64,000 bases of DNA, from contig QHWY01000105.1 in assembly GCA_003223875.1 (NCBI GenBank), positions 1-64,000 on the forward strand, read 5' to 3'. The notes beneath the pieces are model-generated. The model saw only the letters and a list, made by a program, of their open reading frames with translations. It had not been told where the DNA came from and searched no databases. Within the stretch, counting starts at the first letter, position 1; each line of letters begins with the position of its first letter. A program made the position numbers and the translations under genes. This DNA is from Acidobacteriota bacterium. Lineage in GTDB: Bacteria; Acidobacteriota; Terriglobia; 20CM-2-55-15. Shown here piece by piece: positions 22,151 to 48,079 of the stretch.

Positions 22151-23515
22151 ATGACGAGACGAGTTCCTGCGTTGGTATTGGCTGCGGTGGTGGTGCCATT
22201 CGTAATGACGGCGAGCGCGGCTGCGGCCGAAGTGACTTTTTCTAAGGATATTGCCCCGATCTTTCAGGCGAAATGCCAGGAATGCCATCAGCCGAATTCG
22301 ATCGCGCCAATGTCGCTGATCACCTATCAAGAAGCGCGGCCATGGGCGAAAGCGATTCGCGAGCGCGTGATCACGCGGCAGATGCCTCCTTGGCATATCG
22401 ATCGCAGCGTTGGCGTGCAGAAGTTCAAGAATGATATGTCGCTGACCGACGAGCAGGTAGACAAGATCATAGGTTGGGTCGATGCCGGCGCGCCCGAAGG
22501 CAATCCGAAAGATCTGCCGCCGCCGAAGCCGCTTGTCACTGACAATGAGTGGAAAGGCGTCCGGGATGGTTACGGGCCGCCAGACCTCATCATCCGGTCC
22601 CCCGAATATGTCATGTCTGCCCAACACCAGGACGTGTGGTTCCGGACGATGTCCGACATTCCTCTCGCAGAGCCGCGCTGGGCAAAGATGGTTGAGATTC
22701 GTCCGACGAGTCTAAAGGGGCGGCGAACGCTTCATCATTCCGTTGCCTATCTGGTGCTGAACAACGATCCCGACGCCATCAACAAAGGCACCGCGAACGG
22801 GCCGGACCGTTTCCGCGACGGTGACGATCTTGTCAACCGCCGGCCGCAGTTGATGGAATGGGCCATCGGCAAAGGCTACGATCTGTTCCGGCCGGATACG
22901 GGCAGATTGTTGTTGCCGGGCGAAAAGATTGCCTGGGATCAGCACATTCATGCCGTTGGTGAGGAGATCGCCACAGGTTCGGAGATCGGTATTTGGCTCT
23001 ACAAGAAAGGCGAGGAGCCGAAGAAGCGAAGCTATCTGATTGCTTTCACGGGAATCCGAAACGGCCGATCTCTCGACATCCCACCGAACACGCTCGCGAT
23101 GACGGAAGGCTTCACCGTGCTGAAGGAGAACGCGGTACTCGAGAACTTCCAGCCCCATTTCCACCTGCGCGGCAAATCGATGCAGGTCGAAGCGATTTTG
23201 CCCGACGGCAGCTCGCAAATCGTCAGCTACGTCGGCAACTTTAACTTCAACTGGATGACAAACTACATCTACGCTGACGATGCGGCTCCCGTGTTCCCGA
23301 AAGGAACCGTCATCCATGTGAGTGCCTGGTACGACAACACGCGAGCGAACAAGAACAACCCCGATCCGGATCAGTGGGTCGGTTACGGCGACCGCACTGT
23401 CGATGAAATGGCTCACGCCTGGATCAATGTTGTCTATCTCAACGACCAGGAGTACAACGCACTACTCGCGGAACGTAAGACGAAAAACGCTAAAGAGACC
23501 GACGCGGGTAATTAG
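22151..23515 (+). CDS. Exported cytochrome c / PHM-like (copper monooxygenase-like) fusion protein, copy A
   Basis: 454 residues. The signal peptide runs to about 26. A short cytochrome-c-like domain carries CQECH (42-46) and a later MPPWH (78-82). A beta-rich region follows with a His series like the two copper sites of peptidylglycine hydroxylating monooxygenase: HH 195-196, HIH 265-267, PHFH 335-338 and a late Met (DEM, M420). Heme attachment and copper binding are inferred from motifs; the reaction is unknown. The next gene starts 2 nt later. A paralogue with the same motifs in the same order lies at 43353-44675, also followed by a paralogue of the next gene. Confidence 0.8.
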   Translation: MTRRVPALVLAAVVVPFVMTASAAAAEVTFSKDIAPIFQAKCQECHQPNSIAPMSLITYQEARPWAKAIRERVITRQMPPWHIDRSVGVQKFKNDMSLTDEQVDKIIGWVDAGAPEGNPKDLPPPKPLVTDNEWKGVRDGYGPPDLIIRSPEYVMSAQHQDVWFRTMSDIPLAEPRWAKMVEIRPTSLKGRRTLHHSVAYLVLNNDPDAINKGTANGPDRFRDGDDLVNRRPQLMEWAIGKGYDLFRPDTGRLLLPGEKIAWDQHIHAVGEEIATGSEIGIWLYKKGEEPKKRSYLIAFTGIRNGRSLDIPPNTLAMTEGFTVLKENAVLENFQPHFHLRGKSMQVEAILPDGSSQIVSYVGNFNFNWMTNYIYADDAAPVFPKGTVIHVSAWYDNTRANKNNPDPDQWVGYGDRTVDEMAHAWINVVYLNDQEYNALLAERKTKNAKETDAGN

Positions 23516-23517
23516 CA

Positions 23518-24384
23518 GTGAGAAGGCTCGTTAGTCTGAGCGCCGCCGGCGTGATTGCCGGCGGCGTGCTGCTTTTAGGGCAACAGATTCCCGAGCCGCG
23601 GAAGCAGTTCGGCGCCGGCGTCACGGGTGCTTTCGAGGGCTGGTTCGACAACAAAGACAGCAGCCGCGGTTTCCTTGTCGGGTATTTCAATCGCAACACG
23701 CAACAAGAACTCGACATCCCGGTCGGGCCAAACAATCGAATTGAACCCGGCGGGCCCGACATGGGGCAACCGACACATTTCCTTCCCGGCCGCCAATGGG
23801 GAATGTTCGCCATTCCCGTCCCGAAGGTTTTCACTCCACAAGACAAGTTCACATGGACGCTCTTCGTGAACGGCCAGACCACGGTCATTCCTCTTCGCCT
23901 GAATCCGGATTACGTCATCAGCCCGTTCAGTGAGATCGGGGCCGGCAACACGCCGCCTGTGATTGGCTTCGAGGAGAAAGCGCCAACGATTCAGGGTCCG
24001 ATTGCCATGCTGGCTACGGCACCGCCGCGCACGGCGTCTTTGTCCACGCCTCTCGCATTGACGCTCTGGGTGACCGACGACATGAAGTACATCTCGGGCA
24101 CCGGCACGCCGTCGCCATCGTCGCGGCCTCCGGTAACGCTCACCTGGTCGAAATATCGCGGGCCCGGCGCCGTGACGTTCGACAAAGCCACACCGACTGT
24201 TGAGAAGTTGCCGGCCGGAACCGACAACGCGGCCTTCACCGGGAAGGCAACCACGAATGTCAAGTTCAGCGAAGCCGGCGACTACGTGCTCCACGTCACC
24301 GTGAATGATTATTCAGGCGACGGAGGAGGAGGATTTCAGTGCTGCTGGACGACCGGACTCGTGAAAGTCTCGGTCAAGCCCTGA
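23518..24384 (+). CDS. Exported beta-sandwich partner of the heme-c/PHM-like protein, copy A
   Basis: 288 residues. The start is GTG 23518 with a signal-like segment (residues 3-21). The N-terminal domain has the block GYFNRNTQQELDIPVGPNN followed by GQPTHFLP and a WTL strand. The C-terminal half is Ig/PKD-like with proline-rich strands (PPVTLTWSKYRGPG, then DYVLHVTVND) and ends CCWTTGLVKVSV. The protein at 42282-43142 shares the whole layout (GYYNRNSEEEVDIPIGPDN, GQPTHFYP). The function is not known; fixed pairing with the cytochrome gene suggests a structural or electron-transfer partner. Confidence 0.78.
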   Translation: MRRLVSLSAAGVIAGGVLLLGQQIPEPRKQFGAGVTGAFEGWFDNKDSSRGFLVGYFNRNTQQELDIPVGPNNRIEPGGPDMGQPTHFLPGRQWGMFAIPVPKVFTPQDKFTWTLFVNGQTTVIPLRLNPDYVISPFSEIGAGNTPPVIGFEEKAPTIQGPIAMLATAPPRTASLSTPLALTLWVTDDMKYISGTGTPSPSSRPPVTLTWSKYRGPGAVTFDKATPTVEKLPAGTDNAAFTGKATTNVKFSEAGDYVLHVTVNDYSGDGGGGFQCCWTTGLVKVSVKP

Positions 24385-25421: not shown

Positions 25422-25868
25422 TTATTTTTGTGGAGTTCTTTGGAGCGCGCGCTGCCGGCGCTCTTCCTCGATGGATTTGAGACGCTGAGGTCCTGCGGGT
25501 AGAAGCTCGGCGCCGTCTGCCCGAACGAGCTTGCGAAAGAACATGCGTTGGGAACCCGTATGGGTGGGATTACCGGTTACCGTGATTCGCTCACCGGCTT
25601 TGACGGAGTCGGCGGTCCAGCCGACTTCGGAGAGATTCAGCCTGCCGGCGAACTCCACCGTCCACTTCGCGACCTTGCCGGCGTCATCGGTCACGTTCAC
25701 AAACATCATGGCGTGCGGATTGACGAATCGGAACTCCGTCACGACGCCCACGACCGTAATCAGCCGTTTCTCGTCATAGACCGGTGAAAAGGCATGGTGG
25801 GAACTCGCCGCCGCTGCTGACAGCATCAGCACAGGCATAACGAATATGCACGCGCGCAGTAATCTCAC
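25422..25868 (-). CDS. Exported DUF6152-type protein
   Basis: 148 residues. Signal peptide (LLRACIFVMPVLMLSAAAAS), then SHHAFSPVYDEKRLITVVGVV, VNPHAMMFVNVTD and KWTVEFAGRLNLSEVGW, an OB-like beta barrel matching DUF6152. The conserved HH at the mature N-terminus and NPH hint at metal binding, which is untested. It overlaps the next upstream gene by 4 nt, so they are co-transcribed. Confidence 0.78.
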   Translation of the reverse strand: MRLLRACIFVMPVLMLSAAAASSHHAFSPVYDEKRLITVVGVVTEFRFVNPHAMMFVNVTDDAGKVAKWTVEFAGRLNLSEVGWTADSVKAGERITVTGNPTHTGSQRMFFRKLVRADGAELLPAGPQRLKSIEEERRQRALQRTPQK

Positions 25869-26674
25869 GGCCTCACCCCCTTTTTGAATTCGGTCGGAGC
25901 CTGGCAGTTTTCATACGGCGTGATCTTACTTTCTGGGGCCCAGCGCCAGATCTTTTTGAGGACCACCGGTTCCCGGAAAGTCGGAGGATCCTCCATAGTC
26001 ACCGTGAGCTGCAACGTGTTCCCCTCCTTCGAGCGCGTATAGCGTTCCACGATGCGCAGTTGGTCGCTGTGGCGGGCCGTGGTGGCCAAGTCAGGCAAAC
26101 CGGCTATATTCGCCGCGATACCGGAAGTCTCAACAATCAAAGTATCGCCGTCCCAGTGTCCTAGGGAATGCCCCATTGCGCTCGGCGGCTGGTTGACCGG
26201 GCGCTTGCGGCCGTCCAGATAGATGGTCCGCCGCGCATCCCATTCTCCATACCGGAATTCGAGCCGGTCACGGCCTACTTGCCGTATCTCGAACTGATGA
26301 GGCGCAATCATCTGCCGCGCAACGCCCCACGGCTCACAACGAAGAAATCCCGGGTCATCTGCCGGATCAAGGGGAAAAGTCCTCAGCGCGGTCCCCGTTA
26401 GCCGCGAACGAAGGTATTCTCGCTCGTATTTCTTGGCTTCTGCTGCAAGTTCCTCGTACGGACGAGCGTCGTTGGCCGGATTGTCGAGCAAGGCATTCAG
26501 ACGGTCGATTCCGGCGTCGGTGCAGGAGAACGAGCAAAACGAACCTACGATGCTGGCAGGCGGGTCGCTCCACATGCCTTCCAACTTAGAGCGAGATTGG
26601 GATTGACCCGGTAAGGGAATGAACAGCAGTACAGGTAGGACCATTAACAATTGAAGGAGATGGTCTCGCCTCAT
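25865..26674 (-). CDS. Exported hypothetical protein upstream of DUF6152 gene
   Basis: 269 residues from ATG 26674, which has AAGGAG 6 nt upstream; a longer frame to 26707 overlaps that SD and was rejected. Signal peptide (LLQLLMVLPVLLFIPLPGQS), then a Cys pair (FCSFSCTD) and a beta-rich C-terminal half (HSLGHWDGDTLIVET...). Proteins with the GHWDGDTLIVET-type strand commonly occur beside DUF6152 genes. The function is unknown. Confidence 0.7.
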   Translation of the reverse strand: MRRDHLLQLLMVLPVLLFIPLPGQSQSRSKLEGMWSDPPASIVGSFCSFSCTDAGIDRLNALLDNPANDARPYEELAAEAKKYEREYLRSRLTGTALRTFPLDPADDPGFLRCEPWGVARQMIAPHQFEIRQVGRDRLEFRYGEWDARRTIYLDGRKRPVNQPPSAMGHSLGHWDGDTLIVETSGIAANIAGLPDLATTARHSDQLRIVERYTRSKEGNTLQLTVTMEDPPTFREPVVLKKIWRWAPESKITPYENCQAPTEFKKGVRP

Positions 26675-26700
26675 CGCACACTCCTTTCGGATGAATTGCA

Positions 26701-28749
26701 TTACCAAACCTTACAGATCTGATCTGCGAGCTTCACCATCGGCTGTCCCGGTTTGCACGAGAATGCCTTGGCGAACTCCGGCATGTTCACCACCACGCCG
26801 TTGATGCGGTATTTTGCCGGCGAATGCGGATCCGTGATGGCGCGAAGACGGAGGTCCTCCGGACGCTCGTTCGTGCATGCCCACTGGGCAAAGCCGACGA
26901 AGAATCGCTGATCGGGAATGAGGCCATCGATGGGATTAAGCTGCTTCTCTTTCGTCGCATCTTTCCATGCAACATAAGCAAGGATCTCGCCACCCAGATC
27001 CGCCACATCTTCACCTAACGTGAGCTTACTGTTAATGTGCACGTCGTCAACGACAACATACTTAGCGTACTGATCTTCAACACATTGCGTTCTTGCCTCG
27101 AACTTCTCCCGATCGGTTTTCGTCCACCAGTTTTTCAGGTTGCCTTTCGCGTCGAACTGGCTGCCCTCATCATCGAAACCGTGCGTGAGTTCGTGGCCGA
27201 TGGTTCCGCCGGTGTCGCCATAGTTGGGCGCGTCGTCGAGTTTCGCGTCGAACAGCGGTGGCTGAAGCACGCCGGCAGGAAAGTTGATGTCGTTCATTTG
27301 AGGGTCATAATAGGCATTCACCGTCGGCGGTGTCATGTGCCATTCCCCTCGATCGACCGGCTTGCCGACTTTATTGATCTGCCGGCGCCGTTCGAATTCC
27401 GAAGCGCGCGCGATGTTTCCTCGAAAATCATCGCGCGTGATGCGAATTGAACTGTAATCGCGCCACTTCTCCGGATGACCGATTTTGTTTCGGATGCCGG
27501 CCAACTTTTCAAGAGCCTGTTGTTTCGTTTCCGGGCTCATCCAGTCGAGATCCCGGATGCGTTTGCTCATTGCATCTTCAATGCGCCGCACCATATCGAG
27601 CGTGCGCGCCTCTGCCTCGGGGCCGAATGTTTTTCGGACGTAGATCTGCCCCAAGGCTTCGCCAAGATTGCCGTCCGTGTATTGCACACACCGTTTCCAG
27701 CGAGGCTGCATGTCTTCGACTCCCCGGAGGTACTTGCGGTAGAAGTCGAAATTCTCCTGTACGAATTTGGACGACAGGTGCGATGACGCCGAATCCACGA
27801 CGTGATATCGAAGGTATGTCTTCCAGTTTGCGAGCGAGCTGCGTTCCAATTGCGCATTCATCTCGCGGAAGAAATCCGGAGGCGCCACATTGACGATTTC
27901 GAAACTGGGATATCGCAGTTCTTTGTAGTAAAGCGGCCAGTCAAAGTTCGGCGCCAGCTTCGACAATTCCGCTATCTTTATCTTATGTTTCAACTTGTAT
28001 GGATCGCGCCGATCGACTCGAGTCATGGAAGCCTTTGCCAGCAGCGTTTCCAGACTCATGACGACTTCCGCGTTCTTTTTCGCCGTTTCGGCACCGTCTC
28101 CCATCAACTCGAAGAGGCGCTGCACATGCTGCAGGTAGCGCGTACGGATCTCTTTGGATTTATCGTCGTCTTTGGCGTAGTAGTCGCGGTCCGGCAGACC
28201 TAGGCCGCCTTGATCGAGCTCCGCAATCTGCTGCTCAGAGTCATCCGGATCCTGAGTTGAGCCCTGGCGGAAGAGAATCGCGCTTCCATAGGTCAGTTGG
28301 AGACGGCCGATAAACCGCGCTAATTGCCGGACTGATCGGAGCCTGCTGATCGCGTTCAGGTCTGCTTCCAGAGGAATCAGACCGCGTTTTTCGACCGTCA
28401 GCTCATCCATGCACGCACTATAGAAGTCACCGATCTCTCGCGTCACTTCATCGCGGGTCGTCTGGGACGAAGCCGCCGCCTGTTCCAAGATGCTGCGCAG
28501 ATATTTCAAATTGTCTTCATAGAGTTTTCCATACACGTCCCACCTCGTTTGATCCGGCGGAATCGGATTGTTCTTTTGCCATCCACCGCAGGCGTACTTA
28601 TAGAAGTCCACACAAGCATCGACGGACTTATCCATCGCGCTGAGGTCCAGGCTTGGGGTATATGGGAACGCGGGATCTTGGCTCTCGGCAAAGGAGCAGA
28701 GGAGCAGGATGAACAAACAAGCGAATAGGGCGGTTCGTTTGGTCACCAC
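26701..28749 (-). CDS. Exported M13-family (neprilysin-like) zinc metallopeptidase
   Basis: 682 residues with a signal peptide. The N-terminal DFYKYACGGWQKNNPIPPDQ is the family signature. The active site is TIGHELTHGFDDEG (HExxH), and the third ligand lies in LGEDVADLGGE (Asp where most members have Asn, GENxAD). The C-terminal substrate loop and the final CKVW, where the Cys-x-x-Trp ending is diagnostic of M13, are intact. Degrades oligopeptides in the periplasm or outside. It is first of three co-directional exported genes. Confidence 0.93.
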   Translation of the reverse strand: MVTKRTALFACLFILLLCSFAESQDPAFPYTPSLDLSAMDKSVDACVDFYKYACGGWQKNNPIPPDQTRWDVYGKLYEDNLKYLRSILEQAAASSQTTRDEVTREIGDFYSACMDELTVEKRGLIPLEADLNAISRLRSVRQLARFIGRLQLTYGSAILFRQGSTQDPDDSEQQIAELDQGGLGLPDRDYYAKDDDKSKEIRTRYLQHVQRLFELMGDGAETAKKNAEVVMSLETLLAKASMTRVDRRDPYKLKHKIKIAELSKLAPNFDWPLYYKELRYPSFEIVNVAPPDFFREMNAQLERSSLANWKTYLRYHVVDSASSHLSSKFVQENFDFYRKYLRGVEDMQPRWKRCVQYTDGNLGEALGQIYVRKTFGPEAEARTLDMVRRIEDAMSKRIRDLDWMSPETKQQALEKLAGIRNKIGHPEKWRDYSSIRITRDDFRGNIARASEFERRRQINKVGKPVDRGEWHMTPPTVNAYYDPQMNDINFPAGVLQPPLFDAKLDDAPNYGDTGGTIGHELTHGFDDEGSQFDAKGNLKNWWTKTDREKFEARTQCVEDQYAKYVVVDDVHINSKLTLGEDVADLGGEILAYVAWKDATKEKQLNPIDGLIPDQRFFVGFAQWACTNERPEDLRLRAITDPHSPAKYRINGVVVNMPEFAKAFSCKPGQPMVKLADQICKVW

Positions 28750-42281: not shown

Positions 42282-43142
42282 TTAGTTCCGAGGATTGACC
42301 GTGACGTCGACGTCGAAGGGACCAGCCAACTGGCCGTCACTGGCAAGAGCTCGAAGACGGTAATTGCCCGGCGCGCCGAACGTTACTTTGGTTTGCATGG
42401 TCACGGGTTTTCCGTAACTGCGCTCGCTCATGATATCAGGCTCAAAGCGAACTCTGCCTGAACCGCGGTAAACGATCCATCGGATGCGCACACCTTGTTG
42501 GCGGCCCGGGGCGGTGATCGGCTTCGGCCGGCCGTCATCGGTGGCGGTGACGGTCAATGTCAGGGGATCACCCAGCTTGATTGTCTGGGCTGGGCTTCCT
42601 GTCATCGTGGGAGCCACGTTGTCGAAGTCAACGTCACCAAGTCCGGTGGTCATCAACATCGCATCGCGCGGAGAATTTTTGGAAATGATTCCTTGATCGA
42701 CTTCCCATTCCGGCTCGAGCCAGGCTTTGGCTTGATTCGTATGGCCACGGTTCGTCAGCGTCCAGACGAGCCTTTTATCTTTCGGCCAATCTTTGGGTAC
42801 GACGACACCCAACACCCACCATCGCGGCGACGGGTAAAAATGTGTAGGCTGGCCCTGATCGATGTTATCCGTATCGAACTTGTTATCCGGACCAATCGGG
42901 ATGTCGACCTCTTCTTCCGAATTCCTGTTGTAATACCCGAAGTAAAACGTGTAGGTCCCATCCGGATTCATTTTCCAGCCGTCGAATGTCGGACTCACAT
43001 CCTGCCCACGCGCGTATTTGATCTGATATTGTCCAAACAGGCTGGAGACCAAGAGGATAAAAAAACAGAACGACACGATCCCGATAAGGACACTTCTTTT
43101 GGTGTAGCGGCGGTCGTAGAAGCTGTGAACGAATTGACCCAT
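42282..43142 (-). CDS. Membrane-anchored beta-sandwich partner of the heme-c/PHM-like protein, copy B
   Basis: 286 residues from ATG 43142. A membrane anchor (SVLIGIVSFCFFILLVSSLF) is followed by the same domain layout as the 23518-24384 protein: GYYNRNSEEEVDIPIGPDN, GQPTHFYP, VPKDW...WTLTNRG, then PPKPITAPGRQQG-like loops and an Ig-type end. It lies downstream of its heme-c partner as in copy A, but with a 210-bp repeat-rich gap. Copy A has a simple signal segment instead of this long anchor. The function is unknown. Confidence 0.75.
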   Translation of the reverse strand: MGQFVHSFYDRRYTKRSVLIGIVSFCFFILLVSSLFGQYQIKYARGQDVSPTFDGWKMNPDGTYTFYFGYYNRNSEEEVDIPIGPDNKFDTDNIDQGQPTHFYPSPRWWVLGVVVPKDWPKDKRLVWTLTNRGHTNQAKAWLEPEWEVDQGIISKNSPRDAMLMTTGLGDVDFDNVAPTMTGSPAQTIKLGDPLTLTVTATDDGRPKPITAPGRQQGVRIRWIVYRGSGRVRFEPDIMSERSYGKPVTMQTKVTFGAPGNYRLRALASDGQLAGPFDVDVTVNPRN

Positions 43143-43154
43143 CTGCCAATCTAG

Positions 43155-43335
43155 CCGCGGAAGCGGCGTCAGCACATTAGCCCCGAGCGTAAACCCTGGG
43201 TCAGAGTTGATCGCAGCCAAAAGCCCAGACAGGGCGACATATTCTGCCGCCCCTTCTGGGGACTATTCGATCCACTGTACGTCTTCCCAGGGCTGACGCC
43301 CTGGGGTAGTTTCTGTCGCCGCTTCGCGGCGAAAC
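43155..43335. repeat. REP-like palindromes in the copy B gene gap
   Basis: Contains CCGCGGAAGCGGCG, AAACCCTGGGTC, the perfect palindrome CCCAGGGCTGACGCCCTGGG (43286-43305, loop included) and CGCCGCTTCGCGGCG. The same words occur before ffh (8890-9070). No gene is seen here. Confidence 0.5.
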
Positions 43336-43352
43336 AATTCATTCACCCCTGT

Positions 43353-44675
43353 TCATTCCCGCGAACTGGTCAGGATCCGCTGTGCTGCTTTTCTCTCTTC
43401 AACCTCTTTTTTGTAATCCGGTTCGGGCATGTAGTACCAACTGATCCAGGCGGAACCCATTTCGTCCACCGTTCGTTGTCCCCATGTGATCTGCGCATCA
43501 GGATCCGGGTTGAACTTGTTCGCGGCTGTGTTGTCATGCCACGAGATCGAATGCAGAACAGTCCCTTGCGGCAGCAGAGGCGCGGCGTCATCGCGGTAGA
43601 CGTAGTTGATATGCCAATTGAAGTAGAACTTCGCGCAGGACAGCATTTCTACTTTGCCGTTCGGATAGATTGCTTCCAGGCACTCTGCTTTTCCGCGGTT
43701 GTGCATATGAGGTTGGAACGATAGGAGCCGCGCGGGTTTCACGAGTGTGAGATAGCCGTCGGAGCGCACGTTGTCCGTATTGGGGCGAAGGTCGATCTCT
43801 GCCACGCTCACGGTTGTGGAGGAGATCACGTGTTTCGGGACATAACCCTTCGGATAAAACTTCAGACCGAGAGCAACATTGGTTGGTGTCTCCGTACCGA
43901 CCGCATGGAGGTGCAATTGGAAGTTAATTTTCGTTCCTGCCTTGATCAACCGGCCCGATCCTTCTGGAAAGATGTCGCCTTTCTTGCCAATCGCGTACTC
44001 GTTGAGGAAGATTCCCTGCTCGCCCACCTCAAGGGTTCCATCGGTATCGTCGAGTTTGCCGCTGTTGCGGGTCTCAGATGCGGGCTCAACAACTGAGGTT
44101 CTGATATGGTGGATCACCGGGAATCCCTTGACGGGAATGATCTGGACACCTTTTATGTAGCGGTCTTCTGTCAAACCGGGGTCGACCAGGATATCTGGCC
44201 ATTGATCGGGCGCCTTCGCCTTTACAATGACGTCCTTCGGAAGCGTGATGACGCGATCCGGTTCTCCGATCTGCCACGTTTCGTTGTCATTGAACTTAGG
44301 CGCCGGGGGCATATCACCCGGATTGCCTCGAACTGCTCCGCCGTCGACCCACTTCACGATCGTCGCGATTTGATCATCAGTTAAAGAAATGTCGTTGCTG
44401 AAGTACTGCACGCCAACGTTCTTGTCGAGGTGCCAGGGCGGCATCTCTCGCATGAGAACTTTTTCCTTGATCGATCTGGCCCATGGCCTGGCTTCCTCAT
44501 ATGTCATCAATGACATCGGTGCAAACGTGCCGGGGTGGTGGCATATCTGACAGCGCGCCTGAAAGATCGGCGCCACGTCCTTTGTAAAGGTAACCTGGCT
44601 CTGCGCCGATTGCGCGCTCGCAGACACCGCGATCAACAACGTCACAAGCAGAACGGATATAGAAATCGTTCTCAT
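43353..44675 (-). CDS. Exported cytochrome c / PHM-like fusion protein, copy B
   Basis: 440 residues. Signal peptide to about 22, CQICH heme-c motif at 42-46 and MPPWH at 78-82 at the same positions as copy A. The PHM-like His series is HH 189-190, HLH 255-257, PHMH 322-325, and Met in VDEM (406). The conserved closing block NPDPDAQITWGQRTVDEM is also shared. The central region (about 125-235) differs strongly between the copies, which suggests different substrates. No biochemical activity can be assigned from sequence alone. Confidence 0.8.
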   Translation of the reverse strand: MRTISISVLLVTLLIAVSASAQSAQSQVTFTKDVAPIFQARCQICHHPGTFAPMSLMTYEEARPWARSIKEKVLMREMPPWHLDKNVGVQYFSNDISLTDDQIATIVKWVDGGAVRGNPGDMPPAPKFNDNETWQIGEPDRVITLPKDVIVKAKAPDQWPDILVDPGLTEDRYIKGVQIIPVKGFPVIHHIRTSVVEPASETRNSGKLDDTDGTLEVGEQGIFLNEYAIGKKGDIFPEGSGRLIKAGTKINFQLHLHAVGTETPTNVALGLKFYPKGYVPKHVISSTTVSVAEIDLRPNTDNVRSDGYLTLVKPARLLSFQPHMHNRGKAECLEAIYPNGKVEMLSCAKFYFNWHINYVYRDDAAPLLPQGTVLHSISWHDNTAANKFNPDPDAQITWGQRTVDEMGSAWISWYYMPEPDYKKEVEERKAAQRILTSSRE

Positions 44676-44780
44676 GCCTACCTCCGAGAGAGGTCCTTGG
44701 GTATTTTGTCAGTCTTCCTCCTGTTCTTATATCCAACGTTCCTGTTATATGCAAATTGTTTCGGAACCGGCAAAAAGGAA

Positions 44781-44968
44781 TAGCCACAAAGAGGGCTTTG
44801 CACAAAAAATCCTGGGCGGTAATAGACCGCCCCTACAGCTTGGGGTGCGCAACTGTAGGGGCGCTCTATGAGCGCCCGCGATGTATTTTTTGTGCAAAGC
44901 CCACAAAGAGGCACAAAAATCACAAGGTATTCCCATTCTTGTGTTTTTTGTGCCTTTTTGTGGCCAAT
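44781..44968. repeat. GCCACAAA/GGCACAAA inverted repeat, interrupted by the 106-bp element
   Basis: AGCCACAAAGAGGCACAAAA on the left (split by the insertion) faces TTTTTTGTGCCTTTTTGTGG on the right. It fills most of the 344-bp gap between the divergent copy B cytochrome gene and the flavoprotein gene; no gene is seen here. Confidence 0.55.
44795..44900. mobile_element. 106-bp MITE-like element with 11-bp target duplication
   Basis: The 16-bp terminal inverted repeat GCTTTGCACAAAAAAT (44795-44810) / ATTTTTTGTGCAAAGC (44885-44900) is perfect. The direct repeat CCACAAAGAGG flanks it exactly (44784-44794 and 44901-44911). The interior is two GCGGT/ACCGC and GCGCTC/GAGCGC palindromes of the family at 2280-2401. 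Removing the element restores an uninterrupted GCCACAAAGAGGCACAAAA repeat. No coding capacity. Confidence 0.75.
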
Positions 44969-45019
44969 AATTCTTTCGTTGATGTAAATTGCTTTTCACC
45001 ACTTCTCGAGGACAGAAAC

Positions 45020-46678
45020 ATGGCCAAGAAAAACGACTCTTTCAATCCAAGCCGAAGAAAATTCATTAAGGGCGCCGCCCTCACTGTCGGCACGACCGGT
45101 CTGGCCGGCGCTGGCCAGGAAGTCAATGCCGCGCCGCAGGCCCGAGTCCAATGGGACAGAACAGCGGATGTGGTCGTTATCGGAGCGGGAGCCTCGGGTC
45201 TGCCCGCAGCGATCATGGCGCGCGATCGGAGCGCCACCGTAATCCTCATCGATGCCAATCATGATATTGGCGGACACGCGATGTTGAGCGGCGGAAGAGT
45301 CCCACTGGGCGGCGGGACAAGTCTCCAAAAAAAATACGGGATCGTCGATTCGGCGGATCAGGTTTATCTGGACCACACGAATCACAAGAACCGCGAGGTC
45401 CGGTATGGTGATAGGGATCTTGTCCGGATGTGGGCCGACGAGAACGTCGCCACGTTCGAATTCCTCATCGAAAATGGCGTCAAGTTCGTCGATGAAAAAC
45501 CCGAAGTGGTGAATGGAGGAGAAGTCCCTCGTCTTTTCGTGGCGAAGGTATATTCGGACGATCTTAGTGAAACCATCAACGGGAGACCGGGGTCGGGTCT
45601 GGTGCGTCCCTTGGAAAAAAGCGCACGAGCCAAGGGAGTGGAAATTCTCCTGAAGCACCGCATGACCAAAATCATCAGAGAAAATCCGACTTCGGGAAGA
45701 GTGCTTGGAATCACAGCCGTCTTCGAAAACAAGAACGTGAACATCCGCGCGCGGAAGGGTGTGATCATCGCGACCGGCGGCCATACGAGCAATGTCGCTT
45801 TTCGCAGGATGTTTGATCCGCGGCTGACCGAAGAATACCAGGTTGCAGGTGAACCTTGGACGAAACAGAACGCCGACGGAGAAATGCTAGCGATGGACAT
45901 CGGCGCCTCACTTTGGGCGACATCCAATCAGAGTAACGAGGGCGGCCGTGGCGTGACCAAGACACGTCATATTGGAGTCCGTTATGGTTACGAGAATCTC
46001 AGATGGGAACCCCAGAGCCCGATGTTTGCGCAGGCCGGCGGTTCCGGACTCACGGTTCGCAGTTTTCAGAATCTGATCCTGGTGAACCAGATGGGGCAGC
46101 GATTCTGGGACGAGATGGACAATTCATACGCGTTTCTTTCCGCTTGTCTCGGAACCAACGGCAATCTCGGACGCGACGGAAAGGCAAACGGCGGCGGGCC
46201 AATCTGGGCGATCTTCGACTCCGACGCTGTAGCACGCGAGAAGTGGGATCCCAAACCTCCAAATGTGGATCTGAACGGATGGTTCTTCAGTGCGGACACT
46301 ATCGGGGAATTAGCCGGCAAAATCAAAAATCCTTATCAAAGGCACCCTGTTTCACCCAGCGTGCTGGAGCAAACGGTCAATAAGTACAACGGCTATGTGG
46401 ATGCAGGAAAAGACTCGCAGTTCGGAAAGCCAGGTCCAATGTACAAGATTCAAAGACCACCGTTCTACGCGGCATGGTCCACGCCTATCCTTCACGACAC
46501 GCTGACCGGCCTCAAGATCAATACGAAATGCCAGATCATCGATCGCAATAACCAGGTCATCCCTGGCCTGTACGCCTGCGGGGAATCGGCCGGTGGATTT
46601 GCTTTGCACGGGCTGCCGAGAGTTACCGTCTTTGGCCGTGTCGCCGGCCGTGAAGCCGCAAGCGCCAATGCCTCCTGA
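45020..46678 (+). CDS. Tat-exported FAD-dependent oxidoreductase (fumarate reductase / ketosteroid dehydrogenase-like)
   Basis: 552 residues from ATG 45020 with GAGGA 8 nt upstream. A twin-arginine signal SRRKFIKGAALTVG (11-24) precedes the FAD-binding VVVIGAGASGLPAAI (51-65) and a second dinucleotide-fold block ending GLYACGESAGG. The family reduces or dehydrogenates double bonds (fumarate, urocanate, steroid rings). No heme domain is on the chain, so an external electron carrier is needed; the neighbouring c-type proteins are candidates. The substrate is unknown. Confidence 0.85.
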   Translation: MAKKNDSFNPSRRKFIKGAALTVGTTGLAGAGQEVNAAPQARVQWDRTADVVVIGAGASGLPAAIMARDRSATVILIDANHDIGGHAMLSGGRVPLGGGTSLQKKYGIVDSADQVYLDHTNHKNREVRYGDRDLVRMWADENVATFEFLIENGVKFVDEKPEVVNGGEVPRLFVAKVYSDDLSETINGRPGSGLVRPLEKSARAKGVEILLKHRMTKIIRENPTSGRVLGITAVFENKNVNIRARKGVIIATGGHTSNVAFRRMFDPRLTEEYQVAGEPWTKQNADGEMLAMDIGASLWATSNQSNEGGRGVTKTRHIGVRYGYENLRWEPQSPMFAQAGGSGLTVRSFQNLILVNQMGQRFWDEMDNSYAFLSACLGTNGNLGRDGKANGGGPIWAIFDSDAVAREKWDPKPPNVDLNGWFFSADTIGELAGKIKNPYQRHPVSPSVLEQTVNKYNGYVDAGKDSQFGKPGPMYKIQRPPFYAAWSTPILHDTLTGLKINTKCQIIDRNNQVIPGLYACGESAGGFALHGLPRVTVFGRVAGREAASANAS

Positions 46679-47270
46679 AGATGTAGAAGCCGGAGAACAC
46701 AAGGCGAGCATTGCGGTCTGGGAGCTCGTCTCTCCTCTGGTGATCGGCCGCACAACGAAAATTAAAGTGGGAGCGAAGTGCTCGGCCGGCTGTCAACTCA
46801 CGGATCATGAAATCTCGATCCACGACGCTGCCGGCCAAGTGATCGCCCGCGCCGGTTTTGGTGCTACAGCTTGGCCGGGCACGAGCGGTCTCTATTGGGT
46901 GGACATCGAATTCCGCGCTCCCACGGAAGCCGGCACTCATACGTTTTCGGTCGAGTGCGAACACGGCGAGGCTTACTCCGAATTTAGCTTCATCACCGTC
47001 GAACCGCCCGAACACAGCCTGACAATCCAGATCTACGACAAGGCCACAAAAGAACCCATCCCTGAAGTGGAAATCCGGCTCGGTGTCTATCGAAGCATCA
47101 GCAATGAACGAGGCCTTGCGAGAATAGATGCGCCGAAAGGCAGCTACACCCTCACTGCTTGGAAGCTTGGATACGACCTCTTTTCAACCGAGCTCAATAT
47201 CACCAGTACAGTCGCGATTGAGGTTGAAATCGCCGTTGAGCCTGAGCCCGCGCAGCCCTACTGGATGTAA
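46668..47270 (+). CDS. Two-domain beta-sandwich protein coupled to the flavoenzyme
   Basis: 200 residues from ATG 46668, overlapping the flavoprotein gene by 11 nt. The N-terminal half is an Ig-like sandwich with Cys residues (KCSAGCQLTDHEISIHD, later VECEHGEAYSEF). The C-terminal half is carboxypeptidase-regulatory-like (LTIQIYDKATKEPIPEVEIR, GSYTLTAWKLGYD). There is no signal peptide, so it may be cytoplasmic or co-exported with the Tat partner. The function is not recognised; coupling suggests an accessory or docking role. Confidence 0.65.
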   Translation: MPPEDVEAGEHKASIAVWELVSPLVIGRTTKIKVGAKCSAGCQLTDHEISIHDAAGQVIARAGFGATAWPGTSGLYWVDIEFRAPTEAGTHTFSVECEHGEAYSEFSFITVEPPEHSLTIQIYDKATKEPIPEVEIRLGVYRSISNERGLARIDAPKGSYTLTAWKLGYDLFSTELNITSTVAIEVEIAVEPEPAQPYWM

Positions 47271-48079
47271 ACCGCGTTCGGCCGTTCGTTCAGCTCGATG
47301 TAAGTTCCCCACGGATCGTAAATGAACGCGAGCGCGCCGCCGGTCTGCGGATTCCTCGTCAACGGACGATCGAGCTTGATGCCCGCTGCTTCGAGCTTTT
47401 TGCAGAACGCCTCGAGGTTCTGAACATCGAAGCCGATGTGATCGAGAATGCGGCCCCTGGTCGTGACAGCCGGGCCGTCGGCTTTGGAAAACGTCAGGTT
47501 CACGCCGGGAAGATCGGCAGCCTGATTCTGTCCCCGCGTCCCGGGTTTCGCGCCAAACGTCTTTGCGTACCACGCCTGGATTTGCGGTATGACCGACTCG
47601 GGCACGTTGAAGTGGACGTGATGATGCTGGATCGGGAACTTCTGGTCCTTGTTTTCCAAGATCTCAATGCGCAATTCGTCGCCTGTCACTACAAACGCCT
47701 GATCGGTTCTGCCGTTGCCGCCGGGAAGGACCGGCACGCCCGCAGCTTTCCAAGCTTTGACGGATTCCTGGACGTTTTTCACAGTGAATCCGACATGGTT
47801 CACAATTGAACCCACGGTGCCGCCTTTCGGCGGTGGCGTCCCCGCTGCCTGGTGCAAAATCACGAGCACGCCGGGGAACCGCACGGTTTCAAAGTTTCCG
47901 CCTTTGACTTCGGTGCCGCCCATCGCAAGAAAGATCTTCTTATTTGCGGCGACATCCCGGCTATTGAGATGCCAATGGCCCATAGTCACACCGGCTTCAT
48001 TTGGCGGGAATGCCTGTGCCCACGCGGTGCCGGCGGAAAAACTCAAAATGAGACACAAAACTAGGATCAGTCTTTTCAT
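47258..48079 (-). CDS. Exported VOC (glyoxalase/dioxygenase fold) protein
   Basis: 273 residues. Signal peptide (RLILVLCLILSFSAGTAWAQ), then two tandem VOC modules: GHWHLNSRDVAANKKIFLAM with IVNHVGFTVKNVQ, and HHHVHFNVPES with ILDHIGFDVQNLEAF and FIYDPWGTYIELNE. His and Glu residues at metal positions are present. Whether it is a dioxygenase, lyase or binding protein is not clear. Its 3' end overlaps the convergent upstream gene by 13 nt. Confidence 0.82.
   Translation of the reverse strand: MKRLILVLCLILSFSAGTAWAQAFPPNEAGVTMGHWHLNSRDVAANKKIFLAMGGTEVKGGNFETVRFPGVLVILHQAAGTPPPKGGTVGSIVNHVGFTVKNVQESVKAWKAAGVPVLPGGNGRTDQAFVVTGDELRIEILENKDQKFPIQHHHVHFNVPESVIPQIQAWYAKTFGAKPGTRGQNQAADLPGVNLTFSKADGPAVTTRGRILDHIGFDVQNLEAFCKKLEAAGIKLDRPLTRNPQTGGALAFIYDPWGTYIELNERPNAVYIQ

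Follow-up and report, generated by a model that had tools for sequence, protein, structure and literature searches.

The stretch of DNA analysed here (the window; 64,000 nucleotides) corresponds to contig C451 of a 6.58-Mb genome in 489 contigs, which we call the home genome, and the closest relatives at the genes described here are found in records titled Acidobacteria. The window contains two gene pairs with the same gene order, one at 22151-24384 on the plus strand and one at 44675-42282 on the minus strand, both present where the original prediction had placed them. In the first pair (module 1), the gene A1 (22151..23515, plus strand) encodes a predicted exported protein of 454 aa with a single heme c motif and likeness to peptidylglycine hydroxylating monooxygenase (PHM) and dopamine beta-hydroxylase (DBH). 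The gene B1 (23518..24384, plus strand) encodes its predicted exported partner, a 288 aa protein of two beta-sandwich domains whose GTG start lies two bases past the A1 stop codon. The second pair (module 2) consists of A2 (43353..44675, minus strand), encoding a second heme-c and PHM/DBH-like protein of 440 aa, and B2 (42282..43142, minus strand), encoding a second beta-sandwich partner. The ORF of B2 as listed opens at a TTG at 43220; because this codon falls within a dispersed repeat (43145..43345, minus strand), the true start is likely the ATG at 43142. The repeat lies in the A2-B2 intergenic gap and has no part in function. It is partly palindromic, with self-complementary matches, abuts the B2 start and misleads ORF calling; six more copies match most of it at 84-92% identity, and partial copies number in the dozens genome-wide (76 match rows).

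Both A proteins carry the motifs C42xxC45H46 and M78PPWH82, an HH pair (residues 195/196 in A1 and 189/190 in A2), HxH, PHxH and DEM, and both B proteins carry GY(F/Y)NRN, DIP(V/I)GP and GQPTHF, in agreement with what had been read from the sequence earlier. A1 and A2 are 43% identical across 443 columns (E 1e-117) and B1 and B2 are 32% identical (E 7e-33), far above chance level in both cases. The module had been described as duplicated, which understates the case: the duplication is neither local nor recent, and the genome has at least nine such modules, all of them paralogous and ancient. A whole-genome search of the home genome found nine A-B modules (two on C451 and one each on C478, C396, C79, C30, C273, C488, and C489). 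It also found a tenth B, as a fragment, where C449 ends and about 14 A genes that lack B. Modules 1 and 2 sit on separate deep branches of the A tree; the nearest kin of A1 (83% identity) is in another genome, and that of A2 (64% identity) is the home copy on C79. Because the genome holds nine modules and the two in the window are placed in different deep branches, we regard the window copies as old paralogs and not as a local duplication.

An AlphaFold model of A1, built from 77 natural sequences, reached a pLDDT of 87.9 and a pTM of 0.85. When this model was searched against the PDB, PHM and DBH filled ranks 1-31 (E 2e-11 to 1.6e-8, probability 1.00), and the next kind of match appeared only at E 5.5e-5. 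Against PHM, the model reached moderate TM-scores of 0.51-0.64, by target length, with an rmsd of 6-8 A, which is consistent with two domains set differently in the model. A profile of the 19 A rows from the home genome, searched against the PDB, retrieved human DBH (4zel) at E 9e-5 with the HH pair, the third His, and the HxH aligned, which makes dopamine beta-hydroxylase/MOXD the closest solved relative of A by sequence. Against the PDB-deposited sequence of rat PHM, the same profile aligned H107/H108 with H195/H196 and H172 with H265, and on the CuM side H242/H244 with H336/H338 and M314 with M420. This pairwise score is weak on its own (E 0.002); the register is the point, and alignment A5 yields the same one. 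Alignment A3, made up mostly of the module clade, recovered neither the DBH match nor the ligand register against the PDB or rat PHM, both of which came only from the more diverse alignments, A5 and the one labelled A1.

In A1, H195, H196, and H265 would thus be the ligands of CuH and H336, H338, and M420 those of CuM; the predicted fold is that of PHM/DBH, and the His/Met series, whose convergence had been proposed as a check, falls in order on the PHM copper ligands. All six positions are invariant in the 19 home-genome rows, and among the wider set of 77 A rows one lacks three ligands and one is gapped at M420. The earlier reading of the motifs needs partial revision: the HH pair and a third His correspond to the putative CuH, whereas CuM is predicted to use PHxH and the Met of DEM. 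The motif listed as HxH contributes only its first residue, H265, as the candidate third CuH His, and H267 is not conserved (9 of 19 home-genome rows). We would like to note that one A-family protein, encoded at L109:2867-4081, has R, N, and Y in place of H336, H338, and M420; judging by its sequence, this product is possibly inactive or repurposed.

Neither window A protein matched Pfam Cu2_monooxygen or Cu2_monoox_C. Cu2_monoox_C is matched by 9 of the 19 home paralogs (best E 4.4e-6), one of which exceeds the cut-off (25.7 vs 23 bits) and also gives a weak Cu2_monooxygen match. Taken on its modeled fold and aligned ligands, A has the double beta-sandwich fold of PHM/DBH with a predicted two-copper core. 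It shares with PHM the fold, the six copper ligands in order, and the motifs IPP, HxHxxGK, and DEM at the CuM methionine, and differs in its low identity (10-14% in the fold match), its N-terminal heme c domain, its dedicated partner gene, and the lack of a peptide-carboxylate clamp. With DBH it shares a Gln two residues ahead of the CuM HxH, and the third-His motif LEVHYH of DBH resembles WDQHIH of A; DBH has an N-terminal DOMON domain, whereas A has a cytochrome c.

All 77 A rows keep the CxxCH motif, M54, and the MPPW methionine M78, and the A N-terminus is signal-like. In the A1 model, the heme part is predicted to form helices at residues 30-41, 59-74, and 100-111, and M78, a candidate axial ligand, is on sequence grounds the likeliest sixth heme ligand. 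Pfam and NCBIfam searches with the window A proteins gave sub-threshold cytochrome matches only, among them Cytochrome_CBB3 (20.4 vs 27 bits). By its motif, export signal, and predicted helices, the N-terminal part of A is a divergent c-type cytochrome domain.

The partner protein B is modeled as two beta-sandwich domains (pLDDT 87.9). A fold search with this model gave generic Ig-like matches, with weak ones including adhesins and one carbohydrate-binding module, and a profile of B against the PDB gave antibody-like noise only. No Pfam or NCBIfam family scored above cut-off for B, the match of B1 to Pfam PKD falling below the gathering score (14.1 vs 23.5 bits). GW, GYxNRN, GxN, and DxGQPTHF are strongly conserved, the aromatic residues W42, Y56, and W113 are conserved, and a C-terminal CCW motif is present in 70 of 73 wider-set rows and absent from B2 and from its relatives in the home genome. 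Family f48 matches B over the N-terminal domain only, once in an ORF of 166 aa; since this is the sole part matched there, the N-terminal domain is probably the essential part of B.

The pairing of A and B was examined from both sides. The 80 public loci contain 83 B genes, 82 of which lie beside an A gene on the same strand (six of these pairs scored far apart merely through overlapping ORF calls), and the lone exception is located 251 bases from the start of its contig. The order B-A was found in 12 cases, and A-B order also; A and B on opposite strands, an A-A-B array, and an A-B fusion of 755 aa, known from one genome, also occur. On the A side, an independent search of 297 genomes of the phylum with A gave 82 A genes better than E 1e-125. 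B was found within 700 bases for 72 of these and for four more once the flanks were read, and two ran off their contigs; three A genes that belong by score to the module clade (two in L141, one in L142) have no nearby B, and L147, a weaker A match, has none. Of the 79 high-scoring A genes that are informative, 76 have B, with one A-A-B array counted and L147 left out, so that the adjacency proposed earlier is conserved from either gene. The three module-clade genes with no nearby B suggest that A may also work without it. Two records bearing the module are titled Acidimicrobiia (L111) and Bordetella parapertussis (L091), as though the pair had spread into Actinomycetota and Bordetella; they seem to correspond to G237:C14 and G187:C1, which are placed in the window's phylum/class, and we rejected such a spread since the titles look wrong.

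In the A tree, the A genes accompanied by B group in one clade (SH-aLRT 100) of 104 rows, 101 of them labelled as having B; the three unlabelled rows (L066, L115, and L117) have B too, with ORFs that overlap. Most rows of this clade were gathered through B, which is a bias, and the unbiased checks are the home genome (9/9) and the phylum search. Solo heme-c/PHM-like proteins in the same genomes have the two-part architecture and the copper ligands of A, and differ in having no B gene alongside and in falling outside the B-bearing clade. Across the nine home modules, the identities of A and B correlate (r 0.90, Mantel p 5e-5); as this comparison is confined to a single genome, species history is no confounder. 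From the pairing, the co-divergence, and the fusion, we infer that B docks on A.

Around the modules, the recurrent neighbors fix no substrate or pathway context. In four related loci, a PQQ dehydrogenase gene lies 13-76 bases after A-B, followed in three of them by a small CxxCH cytochrome. PQQ dehydrogenases are enriched near modules, at 16 of 88 loci against about 3 expected on the basis of about 13 copies in the home genome. These neighbors fit an electron chain, on thin evidence; since direct adjacency is seen in only a few related loci, naming the PQQ dehydrogenase as the electron donor is a guess. TonB receptors, DUF6152, and the family of the window gene at 25868-26707 also recur. The last of these was considered as a substrate clue and set aside, because the family has over 120 matches in the home genome and nearness is to be expected by chance. 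Together, these window genes (25422-26707) encode a DUF6152 protein and a member of a strikingly expanded, unexplained paralog family without a Pfam or NCBIfam match. Near module 2, the window encodes an FAD-binding protein of the flavocytochrome c/3-ketosteroid dehydrogenase type (44756-46678), divergently oriented from the module, and a glyoxalase-fold protein (47258-48079); neither gene was seen to recur at other modules.

The predicted fold, the ligand register, and the adjacency of B together support the original proposal of an exported heme-and-copper enzyme with a dedicated partner. We consider it likely that A is an exported copper monooxygenase supplied with electrons by its own heme and not by ascorbate, and that B is an accessory subunit docked on it. 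Located in the periplasm or secreted, A would accept electrons from a periplasmic donor at its heme domain (C42xxC45H46, with M78 the likely sixth ligand). The heme would then reduce CuH (H195, H196, and H265), the electron-transfer copper, in place of the soluble ascorbate of animals, and CuM (H336, H338, and M420) would bind O2 and hydroxylate an organic substrate. In animal PHM and DBH, ascorbate reduces both coppers, and how electrons cross the gap of roughly 11 A between them is still argued; as A has a heme fused to it, heme-to-CuH transfer is the simplest reading. B, whose two Ig-like domains would make up an accessory subunit obligate to the enzyme, would dock on A, probably through its N-terminal domain, the part that the smallest B proteins retain, and may help to position the substrate or hold the complex together. 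Because the pocket differs among the paralogs and the copper core does not, each module probably acts on a compound of its own.

The residues of the pocket bear directly on what A may do. In PHM, R240, N316, and Y318 form the clamp that holds the carboxylate of the substrate peptide; at these positions, 69-74 of the 77 module-clade rows have Q334, H422, and W424, and paralogs without B are variable. Fixed ligands, together with clamp positions occupied by Q/H/W in the module clade but by varying residues elsewhere, argue for catalysis with diversified substrates. The absence of the clamp also makes peptide amidation improbable, and with it the possibility that A is a bacterial PHM proper, hydroxylating C-terminal glycines while NHL beta-propellers act in trans as PAL to yield amidated peptides. 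We regard this as very unlikely, despite the shared fold and copper ligands and the PAL-like/NHL propellers encoded within 10 kb of a module at about 14 of 88 loci. One such propeller matches rat PAL (E 1.2e-13), yet fits plain NHL proteins better; with some 15 close propeller copies in the home genome (over 30 in all) and rare direct adjacency, the co-location is weak.

That six ligands are invariant in the 19 home-genome rows while the pocket varies between paralogs is the pattern expected of enzymes, and it counts against A being a noncatalytic redox/copper sensor or copper-handling protein on the PHM fold, with B as a signalling or storage partner. The absence of a fixed substrate or pathway context would suit such a role, as would L109:2867-4081, since part of the family may have lost activity; the recurrent neighbors, however, include no gene for copper export, for a chaperone, or for signalling, and we think this role unlikely. 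A heme-linked oxygenase acting on polymers, with B as the polymer-binding module, would have a precedent in fungal cellobiose dehydrogenase/LPMO pairs, where a heme domain donates electrons to a copper oxygenase, and would make sense of the Ig-like domains of B with W42, Y56, and W113 and of their weak fold matches to adhesins and a carbohydrate-binding module. In those pairs, though, the heme is b-type and the proteins are separate, whereas A fuses a c-type heme to an oxygenase with an unrelated copper site, of PHM type and not the LPMO histidine brace. As B matches no Pfam carbohydrate-binding family and no glycoside hydrolase is among the recurrent neighbors, an LPMO-like role seems quite unlikely.

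The proposed copper monooxygenase with its own heme belongs to a known kind, that of PHM and DBH, which are known mainly from animals, where they make hormones and neurotransmitters; the variant features are the heme c fusion, the near-obligate partner of an unnamed family, and the large bacterial expansion. A broader statement, which in our judgment is evenly balanced, is that these proteins are a large bacterial PHM/DBH branch in which a c-type heme, part of the protein itself and connected to the respiratory or PQQ pool of electrons, takes the place of ascorbate, with one clade an obligate two-subunit complex whose paralogs are tuned to different substrates. A literature search, with subscription journals mostly outside its scope and a prior mention therefore possible, found no study of a heme-c-fused PHM/DBH-like enzyme, and automatic database labels for relatives may exist. 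If this is right, bacteria would provide a heme-fed version of these enzymes that is soluble and open to engineering, one in which the delivery of electrons could be timed and altered by mutation. A chemistry would also be found for genes that number about two dozen in a single genome of a soil phylum that is abundant and poorly understood, as well as for the B partner family, which the searched libraries leave unnamed.

Other arrangements of the A family were also seen. Five tandem A-family genes without B lie at L148:3012-10121 in one genome (G235), and the A-family proteins encoded at L032:7565-9553 and L037:3-2687 have extra C-terminal parts, consisting of TPR repeats and a DUF5719-like region, respectively.
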